Shown: piece by piece, positions 381 through 39,592 of the stretch | Layout: each line of letters begins with the position of its first letter | Numbering within the stretch: the stretch's first letter is position 1 | Assembly: GCF_000738775.1 (NCBI RefSeq) | Contig: NZ_JPOC01000035.1 | Coordinates: forward strand, 1-63,802 | Reading direction: 5' to 3' | Length of the DNA: 63,802 nucleotides | Source of the DNA: Prescottella defluvii | GTDB lineage: Bacteria; Actinomycetota; Actinomycetes; Mycobacteriales; Mycobacteriaceae | Notes under the pieces: generated by a model | Told to the model about the DNA's origin: nothing | Databases searched by the model: none | Seen by the model: the letters and a program-made list of their open reading frames with translations, nothing else | Program-made: the position numbers and the translations under genes

Positions 381-1878
381 TCCGCAGGGTTTCCTACACG
401 TCGGCAAGCAGGAGGCGCGCAAGCGCCCCGTGGAGGAACGGGTCCACGACTGGCGTGAAGTGTACGAGCCGCAGTCGGCCGAGGACCGTGCCCGGGAGGT
501 GTCCGAGCAGGCCCGGCGGTGCATGGACTGCGGCATCCCGTTCTGTCACTCCGGCAGCGCTGGATGTCCCCTGGGGAACCTGATTCCCGAATGGAACGAC
601 CTGGTGCGCCGCGGTCGGTGGGGCGCGGCGGCGGAACGGTTGCACGCGACCAACAACTTCCCGGAGTTCACGGGGCGGGTGTGCCCGGCACCGTGCGAGG
701 CCGCCTGCGTGCTCTCGCTCGCCGACACCCACACCACCGGCAGCGTCACGATCAAGCGGATCGAGCAGGCGATCGCCGATACCGCCTGGGAGAAGGGCGA
801 CGTGGGGCCGGTGCTGCCGGCGCTCGGCAGCGGACGGCACATCGCCGTCGTCGGCTCGGGACCTGCCGGACTTGCTGCGGCGCAACAACTCACCCGCGTC
901 GGACACGAGGTGACGGTGTACGAGCGCGACGACCGACTCGGGGGTCTGCTGCGGTACGGGATTCCCGAGTTCAAGCTCGAGAAGTCGGTGGTGGACCAGC
1001 GGCTGACCCAGATGCGAGTGGAGGGAACACATTTCGTCACCGAGGTCGAGGTGGGCATCGACCTGTCGGTGTCGGCGCTGCGCGAGAGATACGAGGCCGT
1101 CGTGCTCGCCACGGGGGCCCTGTACGCGCGGGACAACCGCGACGTCGTGGGCCGCGATCTGGACGGTGTGCACCTGGCGATGGAGTACCTCGTCGCCTCC
1201 AACCACGAGTGCGAGGGTGACGGTCCGACGCCGGTCACCGCGCGCGGCAAACACGTCGTGATCATCGGCGGCGGCGACACCGGAGCGGACTGCCTCGGAA
1301 CCGCGCACCGGCAGGGTGCGTCGTCCGTCACTCAACTGGACTACCACCCGGCCCTGCCCGCGGAACGGGACGAATCCGCCACTCCGTGGCCGGCCTGGCC
1401 GATGGTGCTGCGTACGTCCCCGGCGCATGCGGAGGGCGGCGTGCGCCGATACGAGGTTGCGGTCCAGCGCTTCCTCGGTGACGCCGACGGTCACGTGAGG
1501 TCGATGATCCTCGCGGAGGTTCGGCTGGGGCGTGACGATTCGGGCAGAAGGGTGATCGTGCCGGTCGGTGAGGAGATCGAACTGCCTTGCGACCTCGCGC
1601 TTTTCGCAATCGGATTCGAAGGGGTCGAACCGGGACCGTTGCTCGACGACCTGGAACTCGGGACCAATCGTCGAGGATCGCTCTCGTGCGGATCCGATTG
1701 GCAGACGGCGACTCCCGGCGTTTTCGTGTGTGGTGACGCACACCGTGGGGCATCCCTGGTCGTGTGGGCCATCGCGGAGGGGCGGTCCGCTGCACGCGGC
1801 GTCGACGTCTACCTGACCGGGAGTTCGGAACTGCCCGCCCCCGTCCATCCGACGGCACTCCCGCTGACCGTCGTCTGA
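373..1878 (+). CDS. gltD: Glutamate synthase small subunit (NADPH)
   Basis: 501 aa, usual length for GltD. It passes electrons from NADPH through FAD and Fe-S centres to GltB. The N-terminal ~150 residues carry the cysteine clusters for the 4Fe-4S centres (CMDCGIPFC near residue 50, then CPAPCEAAC). The FAD Rossmann motif VVGSGPAGLAAAQ is near residue 158 and the NADPH motif IIGGGDTGADC near 297. The GTG start is fixed by the family N-terminus (MADPQGFL) and by its 8-base overlap with the gltB stop. An antisense open frame of 484 codons is a high-GC shadow. The next gene, pyk, has its own promoter-like sequence. Confidence 0.97.
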   Translation: MADPQGFLHVGKQEARKRPVEERVHDWREVYEPQSAEDRAREVSEQARRCMDCGIPFCHSGSAGCPLGNLIPEWNDLVRRGRWGAAAERLHATNNFPEFTGRVCPAPCEAACVLSLADTHTTGSVTIKRIEQAIADTAWEKGDVGPVLPALGSGRHIAVVGSGPAGLAAAQQLTRVGHEVTVYERDDRLGGLLRYGIPEFKLEKSVVDQRLTQMRVEGTHFVTEVEVGIDLSVSALRERYEAVVLATGALYARDNRDVVGRDLDGVHLAMEYLVASNHECEGDGPTPVTARGKHVVIIGGGDTGADCLGTAHRQGASSVTQLDYHPALPAERDESATPWPAWPMVLRTSPAHAEGGVRRYEVAVQRFLGDADGHVRSMILAEVRLGRDDSGRRVIVPVGEEIELPCDLALFAIGFEGVEPGPLLDDLELGTNRRGSLSCGSDWQTATPGVFVCGDAHRGASLVVWAIAEGRSAARGVDVYLTGSSELPAPVHPTALPLTVV

Positions 1879-1950
1879 CGGTCATCGGGTCGTCACCGTA
1901 CGTTCCCCTGCCGAATAGAGTTCGTTCCTCACATTGACTAGGCTTTCCCC

Positions 1951-3369
1951 GTGACCCGACGTACGAAGATTGTCTGCACACTTGGCCCTGCGACTGCCTC
2001 TGGCGACCGTGTACGTGAGCTCGTCGAGAGCGGGATGGACGTAGCGCGGCTGAACTTCAGCCACGGTGATCACTCCGATCACGAGGACAACTATCGGCGG
2101 GTGCGTGCCGCATCCGAGGTGACGGGACGCGCGGTCGGCATTCTCGCCGACCTGCAGGGCCCCAAGATCCGTCTCGGCCGGTTCGTCGAGGGCAAGACGT
2201 ACTGGGAGACCGGCGAGCAGATCCGCATCACCGTCGAGGACTGCGAGGGCACGCACGACCGCGTCTCGACCACGTACAAGCAGCTCGCGCAGGACGCGCA
2301 GCCAGGGGACCGGTTACTCGTCGACGACGGCAAGGTCGGCCTGGTGGTCGAGGCCGTCGATGGCGACGATGTCGTGTGCCGGGTCACCGAGGGTGGTCCG
2401 GTCAGCAACAACAAGGGCGTGTCGCTGCCCGGCATGAACGTGTCGGTTCCGGCGATGTCCGAGAAGGACGTCGCCGATCTCGAGTTCGCGCTGTCGCTCG
2501 GTGTCGACTTCATCGCGCTGTCGTTCGTGCGGTCACCGGCGGACGTCGAACTGGTGCATGCCGTGATGGATCGTGTCGGTCGACGCGTCCCGGTCATCGC
2601 GAAGCTCGAGAAGCCCGAGGCGATCGAGAATCTCGAGGCCGTCGTGCTGGCATTCGACGCGGTCATGGTCGCCCGCGGCGACCTGGGCGTCGAACTTCCG
2701 CTCGAGCAGGTTCCGCTGGTGCAGAAGCGTGCCATCCAGATCGCCCGCGAGAACGCGAAGCCGGTGATCGTCGCGACGCAGATGCTCGAATCCATGATCG
2801 AGAACTCGCGGCCCACCCGCGCCGAGGCGTCGGACGTCGCGAACGCGGTGCTCGACGGCGCGGACGCAGTGATGCTCTCGGGTGAGACGTCGGTCGGCAA
2901 GTACGTGATGGAGACGGTGCAGACGATGGCCCGGATCCTCCAGGCCGTCGAGACCGATCCGGCGCGCGTTCCGCCGCTGACCCACGTGCCCCGCACCAAG
3001 CGCGGTGTCATCTCCTACGGTGCCCGCGACATCGGTGAGCGTCTCGATGCGAAGGCGCTGGTGGCGTTCACGCAGTCCGGTGACACGGTCCGACGGTTGG
3101 CGCGCCTGCACTCGCCGCTGCCGCTGCTGGCATTCACGCCGCTCGAGGCGGTGCGCCGCCAGCTGGCGCTGTCGTGGGGTACCGAGACGTTCATCGTCGA
3201 GGCGGTCGCGTCGACCGATCAGATGTTCACGCAGGTCGATCACGCGCTGCTCTCGCTCGGCCGCTACAACAAGGGTGACCTCGTGGTCATCGTCGCCGGC
3301 TCCCCGCCCGGCACAGTAGGCTCGACCAACCTGATCCACGTGCACCGGATCGGGGAGGAAGACCACTAG
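1951..3369 (+). CDS. pyk: Pyruvate kinase
   Basis: 472 aa, typical of actinobacterial pyruvate kinase. It converts phosphoenolpyruvate and ADP to pyruvate and ATP, the last step of glycolysis, in the cytosol. The start TRRTKIVCTLGPA is the conserved N-terminus. The active-site lysine region VIAKLEKPEAIEN is near residue 213, the MVARGDLGVEL loop near 239 and MLSGETSVGKY near 309. The GTG start has no clear ribosome site. A -10-like TAGGCT at 1939-1944 ends seven bases before the GTG, suggesting a leaderless transcript (inference). The gene is followed 15 bases later by tesB. Confidence 0.97.
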   Translation: MTRRTKIVCTLGPATASGDRVRELVESGMDVARLNFSHGDHSDHEDNYRRVRAASEVTGRAVGILADLQGPKIRLGRFVEGKTYWETGEQIRITVEDCEGTHDRVSTTYKQLAQDAQPGDRLLVDDGKVGLVVEAVDGDDVVCRVTEGGPVSNNKGVSLPGMNVSVPAMSEKDVADLEFALSLGVDFIALSFVRSPADVELVHAVMDRVGRRVPVIAKLEKPEAIENLEAVVLAFDAVMVARGDLGVELPLEQVPLVQKRAIQIARENAKPVIVATQMLESMIENSRPTRAEASDVANAVLDGADAVMLSGETSVGKYVMETVQTMARILQAVETDPARVPPLTHVPRTKRGVISYGARDIGERLDAKALVAFTQSGDTVRRLARLHSPLPLLAFTPLEAVRRQLALSWGTETFIVEAVASTDQMFTQVDHALLSLGRYNKGDLVVIVAGSPPGTVGSTNLIHVHRIGEEDH

Positions 3370-34953: not shown

Positions 34954-35646
34954 TCACCAACCGCGCTCGCGCCACTCGGCCAGATGCGGGCGCTCTGCTC
35001 CGAGGGTGGAGTCCTTGCCGTGGCCCGGGTAGAACACGGTGTCGTCGGGGAAGCGCTCGAACAGCTTGGACTCGACGTCGTCCATGAGTGACGCGAACCG
35101 TTCGGCATCCGGGGTCTTGCCGACACCGCCGGGGAAGAGCGAGTCCCCGGTGAACAGGTGGACGCGACCGCCGTCGTGCTTCGCGGTGAGGGCGAGTGTG
35201 ATCCCGCCGGGGGTGTGCCCGGCCAGATGGATCACCTCGAGGGTGAGATCACCCACGGTTACGAGGTCGCCGTCGTTGAGCGCGCGGGCCGGGGTGACGG
35301 AGAGGATCTCGGAATCCAGCGGATGCGCCGCGGTGGGGACACCGGTTGCGGCGGCGACCTCGGCGAGCGCGAACCAGTGGTCGTGATGCTGGTGCGTGGT
35401 GACGATCAACTCGAGCTGCGGCGCCTCCTGCGCAATGAGCGCGGCGATGCGCGCGGCATCGTTCGCAGCGTCGATGAGCAGCGACTTTCCGGTCTCGGAA
35501 CACGTGACGAGGTACGTGTTGTTGTCCATCGGGCCCACCGACATCTTCACGATCGTCGCGCCCGGCACAGTGCGACGCTGGGCACCCTGGGCCGCGGAGA
35601 GGTCGCCGGTGTAGTCGTCGTCGATGGTGATGCGCTGCTGCTCCAT
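34954..35646 (-). CDS. MBL-fold metallo-hydrolase (glyoxalase II-like)
   Basis: 230 aa. Metallo-beta-lactamase fold with the metal motif THQHHDHW (HxHxDH), a second His in LAGHTPGG, Asp in [14 protein letters not shown] and His in FYPGHGKDS. The length and motifs fit hydroxyacylglutathione-hydrolase-like enzymes; actinobacterial members probably act on mycothiol or other thioesters, but this is inference. It is the positional counterpart of Rv1637c, divergent from uvrA. ATG 35646 is taken; an upstream ATG at 35676 is possible. Confidence 0.87.
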
Positions 35647-35723
35647 GATCGGGAGGCTACCGTCGAGGGGAGGCATCGCGGATGGTACCCACCGATCACC
35701 GGGAAAGCTGCTGGTCGGGAAGT

Positions 35724-35746
35724 TTGTCGGTACCCGCGCCTACCAT
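35724..35746 (+). promoter_or_regulatory. PafBC-type (RecA-independent) damage promoter of uvrA
   Basis: TTGTCGGTA (35724-35732), exactly eight bases, then TACCAT (35741-35746). Eight of the nine -35-region positions fit TTGTCRGTG, and the -10 fits TANNNT. It would give a leader of ~50 nt before the uvrA GTG at 35804. Confidence 0.8.
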
Positions 35747-35803
35747 GGTTTGCGCCCGGACGCGTATGTCCGCGCCATGGTCGAAACCGAGAAGGGACTA
35801 CGT

Positions 35804-38758
<2,955 letters not shown>

Positions 38759-38766
38759 AAGTGACA

Positions 38767-38808
38767 CACGAAAGCGGTGGGGGACCGAGGTCCCCCACCG
38801 CTTTCGTG
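38767..38808 (+). terminator. Intrinsic terminator of uvrA
   Basis: A perfect inverted repeat of 20 bp per arm (CACGAAAGCGGTGGGGGACC and its complement) around two bases. It begins nine bases after the uvrA stop. It may work in both directions, since the 40-residue minus-strand gene ends at 38859. Confidence 0.92.
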
Positions 38809-38858: not shown

Positions 38859-38981
38859 CTAGGACGCCAGCAGGCTGGTCAGCGAGCCGAGGTCGACGTT
38901 GCCGAGCAGGCTGGTCAGCGAGCCGAGGTCGAGGTTGCCGAGCAGGCCGCCGAGCAGGCTGGTGAGCGATGCCGTGTCCAT
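38859..38981 (-). CDS. Repetitive 40-residue leucine-rich peptide
   Basis: 40 aa. ATG 38981 has an excellent ribosome site (GAAGGAG, seven bases). The peptide is almost wholly built of the unit SLTSLLG plus NLDLG or NVDLG (three SLTSLL copies), with only Met, Asp, Thr, Ala, Ser, Leu, Gly, Asn and Val. It has three acidic and no basic residues. It could form an amphipathic helix or a membrane-active oligomer, loosely like the short helical porin peptides of Corynebacterium, but I know no homologue. A CRP-like site lies 55 bp upstream. An upstream in-frame extension to 39050 lacks a ribosome site. Function unknown. Confidence 0.65.
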   Translation of the reverse strand: MDTASLTSLLGGLLGNLDLGSLTSLLGNVDLGSLTSLLAS

Positions 38982-39035
38982 GTGGAGCTCCTTCGATACC
39001 GGATTCCCCGAGCGGGAGAACCCTGCGTGGTGGCG

Positions 39036-39051
39036 CGTGACCTGTGTCACA
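39036..39051. promoter_or_regulatory. CRP/GlxR-like site upstream of the 40-residue peptide gene
   Basis: CGTGACCTGTGTCACA, reading TGTGACACAGGTCACG on the minus strand, matches TGTGA-N6-TCACA at nine of ten conserved positions. It is centred ~62 bp upstream of the peptide start. A perfect 12-bp palindrome GGACATATGTCC also lies further upstream at 39152-39163. Confidence 0.6.
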
Positions 39052-39214
39052 CGGCGATCACGGTATCAATGCGGAGCTGTAACGGGAGCGGTTTTGCCGA
39101 ACCGATTATCCGGCACCTTTTTCGGGTGTTTCCGCCGGTCAGGGGGAAACCGGACATATGTCCAATAGCTGGCGTGCCGCAGGGGGCCAGTGGGGCCAGG
39201 GGGGCGCTGGACGG

Positions 39215-39592
39215 TCAGAAGACCGGGCCGGTGTACTTCTCGCCGGGGCCCTTGCCGGGCTCGTCGGGGTGCGCCGAGGCCTCCCGGAAGGCGCGCTGCA
39301 GAGCCTGCAGGCCCTCGCGGATCGGGCCGGCGTGCGGGCCGAGGTACTCGACCGAGGAGGTGACCAGTCCGGCGAGTGCGGTGATCAGGCGGCGGGCCTC
39401 GTCGAGGTCGAGGTGGGGGCTGTTGTCGGGGTTCGGATCCGACAGGCCGAGCTTCTCCGCGGCCGAGCTCATCAGCATCACGGCGGCGCGGCTGATCACC
39501 TCGATCGCGGGAACCTCGGCGAGATCGCGCACGTCGTCGAGATCGTCCTCGGCATGCTGGACGGAATCGGCCGGATCAGGGTTCTGCGTCAT
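39215..39592 (-). CDS. DUF1844 domain protein
   Basis: 125 aa. The DUF1844 core is visible as AIEVISRAAVMLMSSAAEKLG (in two parts: AIEVISRAAVML, MSSAAEKLG) near residue 30, LDLDEARRLITALAGL near 62 and a long helix to ~110. The N-terminus is acidic and the C-terminus (PGKGPGEKYTGPVF) unstructured. All-helical, cytosolic. Function unknown, but position next to infC is conserved in several actinobacteria as I remember. Divergent from infC. Confidence 0.8.
   Translation of the reverse strand: MTQNPDPADSVQHAEDDLDDVRDLAEVPAIEVISRAAVMLMSSAAEKLGLSDPNPDNSPHLDLDEARRLITALAGLVTSSVEYLGPHAGPIREGLQALQRAFREASAHPDEPGKGPGEKYTGPVF

Follow-up and report, generated by a model that had tools for sequence, protein, structure and literature searches.

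The interval between uvrA and a DUF1844 gene of Prescottella defluvii raises the question whether a 40-residue open reading frame located there is a gene and, if so, what its product might do. The frame lies in a window of 63,802 nucleotides, i.e. the whole stretch of DNA that was analysed (NCBI RefSeq assembly GCF_000738775.1, contig NZ_JPOC01000035.1, positions 1 to 63,802 of the forward strand). A sequence-only reading of this DNA had regarded it as a small-protein gene without a described family.

The micro-ORF of the window and its peptide

That reading had located the frame correctly; the strand, unstated there, is the minus strand (Table 1). The immediate neighbours of the micro-ORF are uvrA and the DUF1844 gene, with no exporter among these, and infC lies beyond the DUF1844 gene on the far side. 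An operon leader peptide was ruled out because the next gene, uvrA, is convergent and separated from the frame by a perfect inverted repeat. The inverted repeat may serve as a two-way terminator shared by uvrA and the micro-ORF; it was not called by a consensus terminator scan, which wants a T-run.

Table 1. Features of the window at the uvrA-DUF1844 interval
Feature	Position	Strand	Remarks
uvrA	35624-38758	plus	convergent neighbour of the micro-ORF; UvrA domains
Perfect 20-bp inverted repeat, 2-base centre	38767-38808	no strand	separates uvrA from the convergent micro-ORF
Tandem pair of 36-base units that encode SLTSLL repeats	38869-38940	minus	
40-residue micro-ORF (type B)	38981 to 38859	minus	ATG at 38981, stop TAG; translation MDTASLTSLLGGLLGNLDLGSLTSLLGNVDLGSLTSLLAS*
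Ribosome site GAAGGAG	38994-38988	minus	6 bases ahead of the micro-ORF ATG; aligned leaders keep a purine-rich site here
Dyad TGTGACACAGGTCACG	39036-39051	minus	9/10 to the GlxR consensus TGTGA-N6-TCACA; candidate operator or 5' mRNA hairpin
Extended -10-like box TTGATACCGT	39060-39069	minus	columns fully or almost fully conserved across the 23 leaders aligned; putative promoter
DUF1844 gene	39215-39592	minus	upstream neighbour, on the micro-ORF strand; PF08899

The good ribosome site and the three SLTSLL units joined by NxDLG linkers, as previously described, were both found, the linkers ending in NLDLG and NVDLG. The composition also agreed with the earlier description, i.e. acidic with a net charge of -3, without aromatic residues and without K, R or H; the peptide is rich in Ser and Gly and by eye has no signal peptide. 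At the DNA level the repeats are a tandem duplication of 36 bases each (38869-38904 and 38905-38940, 97% identical), and a third copy with 67% identity is located at 38953-38988. On the other hand, the proposal of a membrane-active helix was not borne out. The best 19-residue Kyte-Doolittle mean was 1.21, while the usual transmembrane level is about 1.6, and no stretch was of transmembrane grade. The helical hydrophobic moment of 0.16 was below that of most shuffles of the peptide (p 0.88). Peptides of type A, the commonest relatives (see below), had moments of 0.23-0.41 with shuffle p values of 0.02-0.73.

The absence of a described family held in the databases searched. Neither the window peptide nor its relatives had a credible match in Pfam or NCBIfam; Pfam matches of the G013 peptide with E values of 0.31 and 1.3 were taken as chance, as were the only matches of single family members in PHROGs (E 0.053 and 0.7) and the matches in the PDB (E 0.41 and worse). 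Rfam yielded four matches, all below the gathering score. A plasmid collection queried with type A and a phage collection queried with the window peptide gave no match. Among the literature matches listed, none was recognised as describing a small protein next to uvrA in either Prescottella or Rhodococcus equi; the search largely leaves subscription journals outside.

Prescottella proteins whose N-terminus looks by eye like that of a secreted protein and which end in D[LAF]GSLxx[IL]L repeats were observed at L002 1438-2046 (minus strand; C40 of the window's own genome), L006-L010 and L026. The C40 protein matched the window peptide with an E value of 8.1e-4. Shared origin or low-complexity chance may account for the likeness, which we note without making a claim of it.

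A micro-ORF family in the uvrA-DUF1844 slot of Prescottella

The DUF1844 neighbour has its closest named relatives in Prescottella, and fourteen genomes of this genus, one per species, were compared. In 12 of them, the strand of the DUF1844 gene carries between one and four micro-ORFs in the uvrA-DUF1844 gap, each 35-53 residues long. The other two, G003 and G011, are sisters in the uvrA tree and have no micro-ORF; their gaps measure only 42 and 81 bp. A scan of the 14 gaps (16,322 bases) for an ATG with GGAG 3-15 bases upstream and a product of 25-75 amino acids returned 27 matches (23 on the strand of DUF1844, 4 on the opposite one). In 100 dinucleotide shuffles of the gaps, both strands included, the number of matches averaged 6.0 and never exceeded 14. 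Judged on this locus, micro-ORFs at the slot exceed chance. All but one of the 23 matches on the DUF1844 strand (22/23) belong to one cassette family; the exception, MNGSTADTA... of G006, is without the cassette leader and is counted as a scan match, not as family.

The slot copies fall into five sequence types, A to E. Type A (MGSI...GDLDITALL...EQQQ) has 11 copies and is commoner than the form of the window, type B, which was found in 2 of the 14 genomes (G000 and G008). Types C and D occur in G001, G002 and G008; type E is present in two copies in G001 and one in G002, and is degenerate in G008. The G008 assembly is poor (79% complete, with a broken uvrA frame) and its type C frame is 53 residues long, perhaps through error. 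Its type B peptide is 80% identical to the window peptide with an E value of 1.8e-10. The SLTSLL repeats were rejected as the essence of the family, since they are a local 36-base duplication in one of several forms.

A profile made from type A alone placed types B and D and all C copies but one above every non-cassette frame of the set. The window form scored 7.3 bits (E 0.17) and outranked every unrelated frame of the set, the C copy of G002 fell below three unrelated frames, and type E was absent from the best 60 matches listed. These weak scores suggest that types B, C and D are homologous to type A. The type B frame of G008 has MGSI in frame at codon 3 and matches the type A profile with an E value of 2.2e-4. 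Because of this, and because the window form ranks above the unrelated frames with that profile, type B looks like a changed type A with its start shifted two codons upstream.

With regard to the origin of the copies, the G008 array contains a 328-base copy of the uvrA 3' end with 79% identity and the G001 array contains two fragments of the uvrA 3' end. In these two genomes at least, part of uvrA was thus duplicated together with the micro-ORFs, and such duplication may be a general route of copy increase. The uvrA region of G008 (L055) has a frame broken in places and a 3' end duplicated in the array; assembly errors are possible there.

Another small frame of 67-75 residues (VDTGSLVNLITSVDVGSL...) was seen at L029 1495-1698 (plus strand) and L013 1477-1704 (plus strand), and frames of similar length were also matched in G004 and G008. 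The L029 form had no match in Pfam or NCBIfam.

Leader of the cassettes

The leaders of 23 slot copies were aligned, including that of a degenerate 81-residue type E frame of G008 which is not counted as an ORF. They share a TTGNTANCGT box, followed usually by a small dyad and then by the ribosome site; by eye a G+C-rich hairpin is located 3' of many cassette ORFs. No sigma-70-like promoter was called on either strand by a scan that also misses the conserved box. The GlxR consensus applied to the dyad is that given in PMC7999487. In 15 of the 23 leaders the best GlxR-like site follows the box at a distance of 8-10 bases, in 3 at 19 bases, and in the other 5 it lies elsewhere. The dyad is also the sole fold predicted from the leader alignment, with 6 pairs, 4 of which have changes on both sides, and a weak energy of -3.02 kcal/mol calculated without a shuffle control. 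Because the leaders of G004 and G005 have lost the GlxR consensus and kept most of the pairing, the dyad can be read equally well as a 5' hairpin or as an operator. Three near-consensus GlxR sites were seen in the window vs 0.96 expected, a number reached in 5 of 100 shuffles. In view of the variable spacing, the loss in G004 and G005 and such chance sites, a GlxR operator is not settled as the only reading.

A sequence model of the leader recovered from the 14 Prescottella genomes at E < 1e-6 its 23 source copies in the slot and just two more, each ahead of a type C ORF; the genome of the window itself contains one of the two (C10:43488-43607). In a search of 101 family genomes with stricter filters, five genomes matched at E 0.001 or better, all of them Prescottella. 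The off-slot type C cassette is divergent from an alpha/beta hydrolase-like gene (by eye) in both genomes (L216 and L217, about 1655-2570, plus strand).

The window microprotein shares all that defines the family, i.e. slot, box, ribosome site and an ORF of 35-53 amino acids on the DUF1844 strand. Lack of conservation of the frame in relatives, which the sequence-only reading had named as an argument against a gene, was looked for and did not refute it.

Selection on the coding sequence

The synonymous-rate test proposed in the earlier reading was positive for type A, yet not for the window's own form. The tests were binomial, with all changes taken as equally likely and with pairs that are not independent. 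Seven within-type pairs of type A had a synonymous excess with p values of 1.2e-6 (G010_A2/G009_A2, the best pair with 12 to 1 synonymous), 0.0027 (G004/G005), 0.0035 (G012_A2/G010_A2), 0.017, 0.023, 0.039 and 0.053. This substitution pattern indicates that type A is protein-coding and under purifying selection, and translation of the family is therefore well supported. One of three type C pairs was significant (p 0.0008; the others 0.32 and 0.37), as was none of three type D pairs (p 0.2 to 0.61). For type B no amino-acid constraint was found in the one pair, G000/G008, with 2 synonymous and 11 nonsynonymous changes (pS 0.056, pN 0.130), and selection on this type is possibly relaxed. Positive selection is not claimed for types B and E, the p values for fewer synonymous changes being 0.21 (B) and 0.082 and 0.12 (E).

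Within the type B cassette, conservation is highest in the ORF: G000 and G008 are identical at 110 of 123 positions in the ORF, at 84 of 109 aligned positions in the leader and at 78 of 96 downstream, with the frame intact and no indels. Since divergence is greater in the flanking DNA than in the ORF, we do not favour a simple recent transfer between the two genomes. The pS of type B compares with 0.374 for a 331-codon piece of uvrA from the same genomes; repeat homogenisation or codon constraint might account for its low value. Overall, we consider it very probable that the window micro-ORF is a genuine small-protein gene with its own transcription.

Relatives outside Prescottella

The same scan, applied to 56 loci from other genera in which uvrA was within reach (84,602 bases), gave 23 matches. 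Three of these loci, L092 (R. tukisamuensis), L100 (R. oryzae) and L103 (R. triatomae), have M..PGDIDGLFGSIANIVNSLLSG-type ORFs in the uvrA-DUF1844 slot, and six of the remaining 20 matches are Nocardia frames of one kind with 73-74 residues. This conserved frame (MSARTDL/MTARRDLE...GVTKRIMFGD) is present in the uvrA-DUF1844 gap of the Nocardia loci L120, L130, L132, L133, L147 and L151.

A profile of the three Rhodococcus ORFs matched 6 of 301 family genomes at E < 1e-11, all of a single genus, where the denominator is all 301 genomes and not the genus and where three of the six carry the profile's own source sequences. The Rhodococcus micro-ORFs are located 0.3 to 6.2 kb from DUF1844 on the same strand. 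Three matches near E 0.01, in frames of 191-1255 residues, were taken as chance. The type A profile scored the three Rhodococcus ORFs at 4.9-6.9 bits vs 4.3 for the first unrelated frame, and the reverse profile put just four type A copies above unrelated frames. Searched against 3206 open frames of 75 named non-Prescottella loci, including Nocardia, a joint profile found nothing credible except the three Rhodococcus ORFs that it includes. The Prescottella leader model found none of 6 loci with Rhodococcus forms at E 1, and purifying selection among the Rhodococcus ORFs was weak, with 0.0064 as the smallest p of 15 pairs. By place and pattern the Prescottella and Rhodococcus micro-ORFs are likely to share descent; this is not proved, because the Rhodococcus leader differs and purifying selection there is weak. 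The check for a conserved frame and ribosome site that had been suggested thus came out well inside Prescottella only, while beyond it there is a distant likeness in one Rhodococcus clade alone and nothing credible in the Nocardia loci by the joint profile.

Proposed role of the peptide

The best explanation of the whole, which we put forward tentatively as somewhat short of an even chance, is that the micro-ORF is a real cassette gene of a fast-evolving family of the Prescottella slot and encodes an envelope microprotein that works like PorA/PorH. The window gene would be a lineage-specific form of this microprotein family. Each copy would constitute a cassette in which an extended -10 promoter precedes a ribosome site, the ORF and often a hairpin. 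Most copies would also have a short dyad where the transcript probably begins, and expression would depend on this dyad, which could act as an operator of the cAMP-GlxR type or form a hairpin at the 5' end of the mRNA. The acidic, Ser/Gly-rich peptide would leave the cytoplasm without a signal sequence for the mycomembrane or cell wall and act there like the small PorA/PorH of Corynebacterium; its serines would be candidate sites of O-mycoloylation. By analogy, an envelope role is the likeliest single reading of the window peptide, though we hold it to be possible rather than probable. That the slot is a hypervariable array, where a conserved cassette multiplies while its product of about 40 residues diversifies almost freely (A to E) into species-specific envelope peptides, a new mycomembrane protein class outside Corynebacterium, appears rather unlikely to us.

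Regulators are common among small proteins that have no signal peptide, and the product could be a cytoplasmic or inner-face microprotein that binds a protein partner and is not exported. The short hydrophobic cores and variable Q/G/T-rich tails of type A and of the Rhodococcus forms would agree with such a function, but several types under one kind of leader in one to four copies per genome fit a one-partner interface poorly, and we consider it improbable. Size, acidity, multiplied small ORFs and fast divergence are also what would be expected of a peptide that is secreted as a surfactant or signal and lacks a leader, as do the phenol-soluble modulins of staphylococci, to which the likeness is by description alone. 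Yet the window peptide is not amphipathic by its helical moment and the adjoining genes, uvrA and DUF1844, include no exporter, which makes this reading unlikely. A leaderless bacteriocin was ruled out by the net charge of -3 and the neighbours uvrA and DUF1844; bacteriocins of this class are cationic peptides beside transporter or immunity genes.

Type I toxins are a class of small tandem ORFs with narrow distribution, and the short hydrophobic tandem ORFs in few taxa resemble them in this. A toxin with an unseen antisense RNA is nevertheless very doubtful: the window peptide, unlike these toxins, is acidic (net charge -3) and its hydrophobic stretch (1.21) is below the transmembrane level, and a sigma-70-like promoter was found on neither strand, though the scan is narrow and misses the conserved box. 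Finally, a small regulatory RNA might be the product, with the type B ORF as a decaying passenger. The changes on both sides in 4 of the 6 pairs of the leader dyad and the missing amino-acid constraint in type B would suit an RNA, while the purifying selection on type A amino acids, the retention of ribosome site and frame in type B with the ORF as its best conserved part, and the absence of an Rfam family at the gathering score speak against it; we give it only a slight chance.

With a PorA/PorH-like envelope peptide as the preferred reading, products in the mycomembrane would mean that leaderless small-peptide outer-membrane proteins are not confined to Corynebacterium. The small-protein family was found described nowhere among the literature matches listed and is well supported as translated for type A. 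It illustrates well how expression signals can be conserved while the coding sequence changes fast. Prescottella includes a veterinary pathogen, and because the slot of the family is fixed the proposal is directly testable.

Comparison with known systems

The window peptide of 40 residues is within the size of about 40-57 residues of PorA and PorH, where PorACj has 40 residues, PorA 43 on average and PorH 57 (PMC3792995). The same source describes the PorA/PorH genes as poorly conserved, autonomously transcribed and located between two housekeeping genes, and here, too, small genes with low sequence conservation and a probable transcription of their own, one or two of them in the PorA/PorH case, lie between housekeeping genes. 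PorA, PorH and ProtX are described as being without signal sequences (PMC12632848), like the window peptide by eye, which has no basic residue. O-mycoloylation sites are reported to fall among Ser, Gly and Ala (PMC11066868). Unlike PorA/PorH, the micro-ORFs are present in up to four copies per Prescottella genome and are known from sequence alone, whereas the channel and O-mycoloylation are features of PorA/PorH. We know of no PorA/PorH-like system in the Rhodococcus group. This follows from the porins of Rhodococcus, which are described as MspA-like (PMC9233653). The locus is uvrA-DUF1844 and not groEL2-ppk2 as for PorA/PorH (PMC3792995). Because the locus differs and the sequence test is not decisive, with no match in Pfam or NCBIfam, collections that may or may not include PorA/PorH models, we did not file the window peptide as a member of the PorA/PorH family.

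A further likeness is to the small proteins of mycobacteria found by ribosome profiling, where many unannotated ORFs of 5-50 residues were predicted, some of which keep their place and not their sequence (PMC4633059). The window micro-ORF is likewise small and unannotated. The emphasis of that source is on leaderless ORFs, many of which are coupled to a downstream gene, whereas the micro-ORF of the window has a ribosome site and a convergent next gene.
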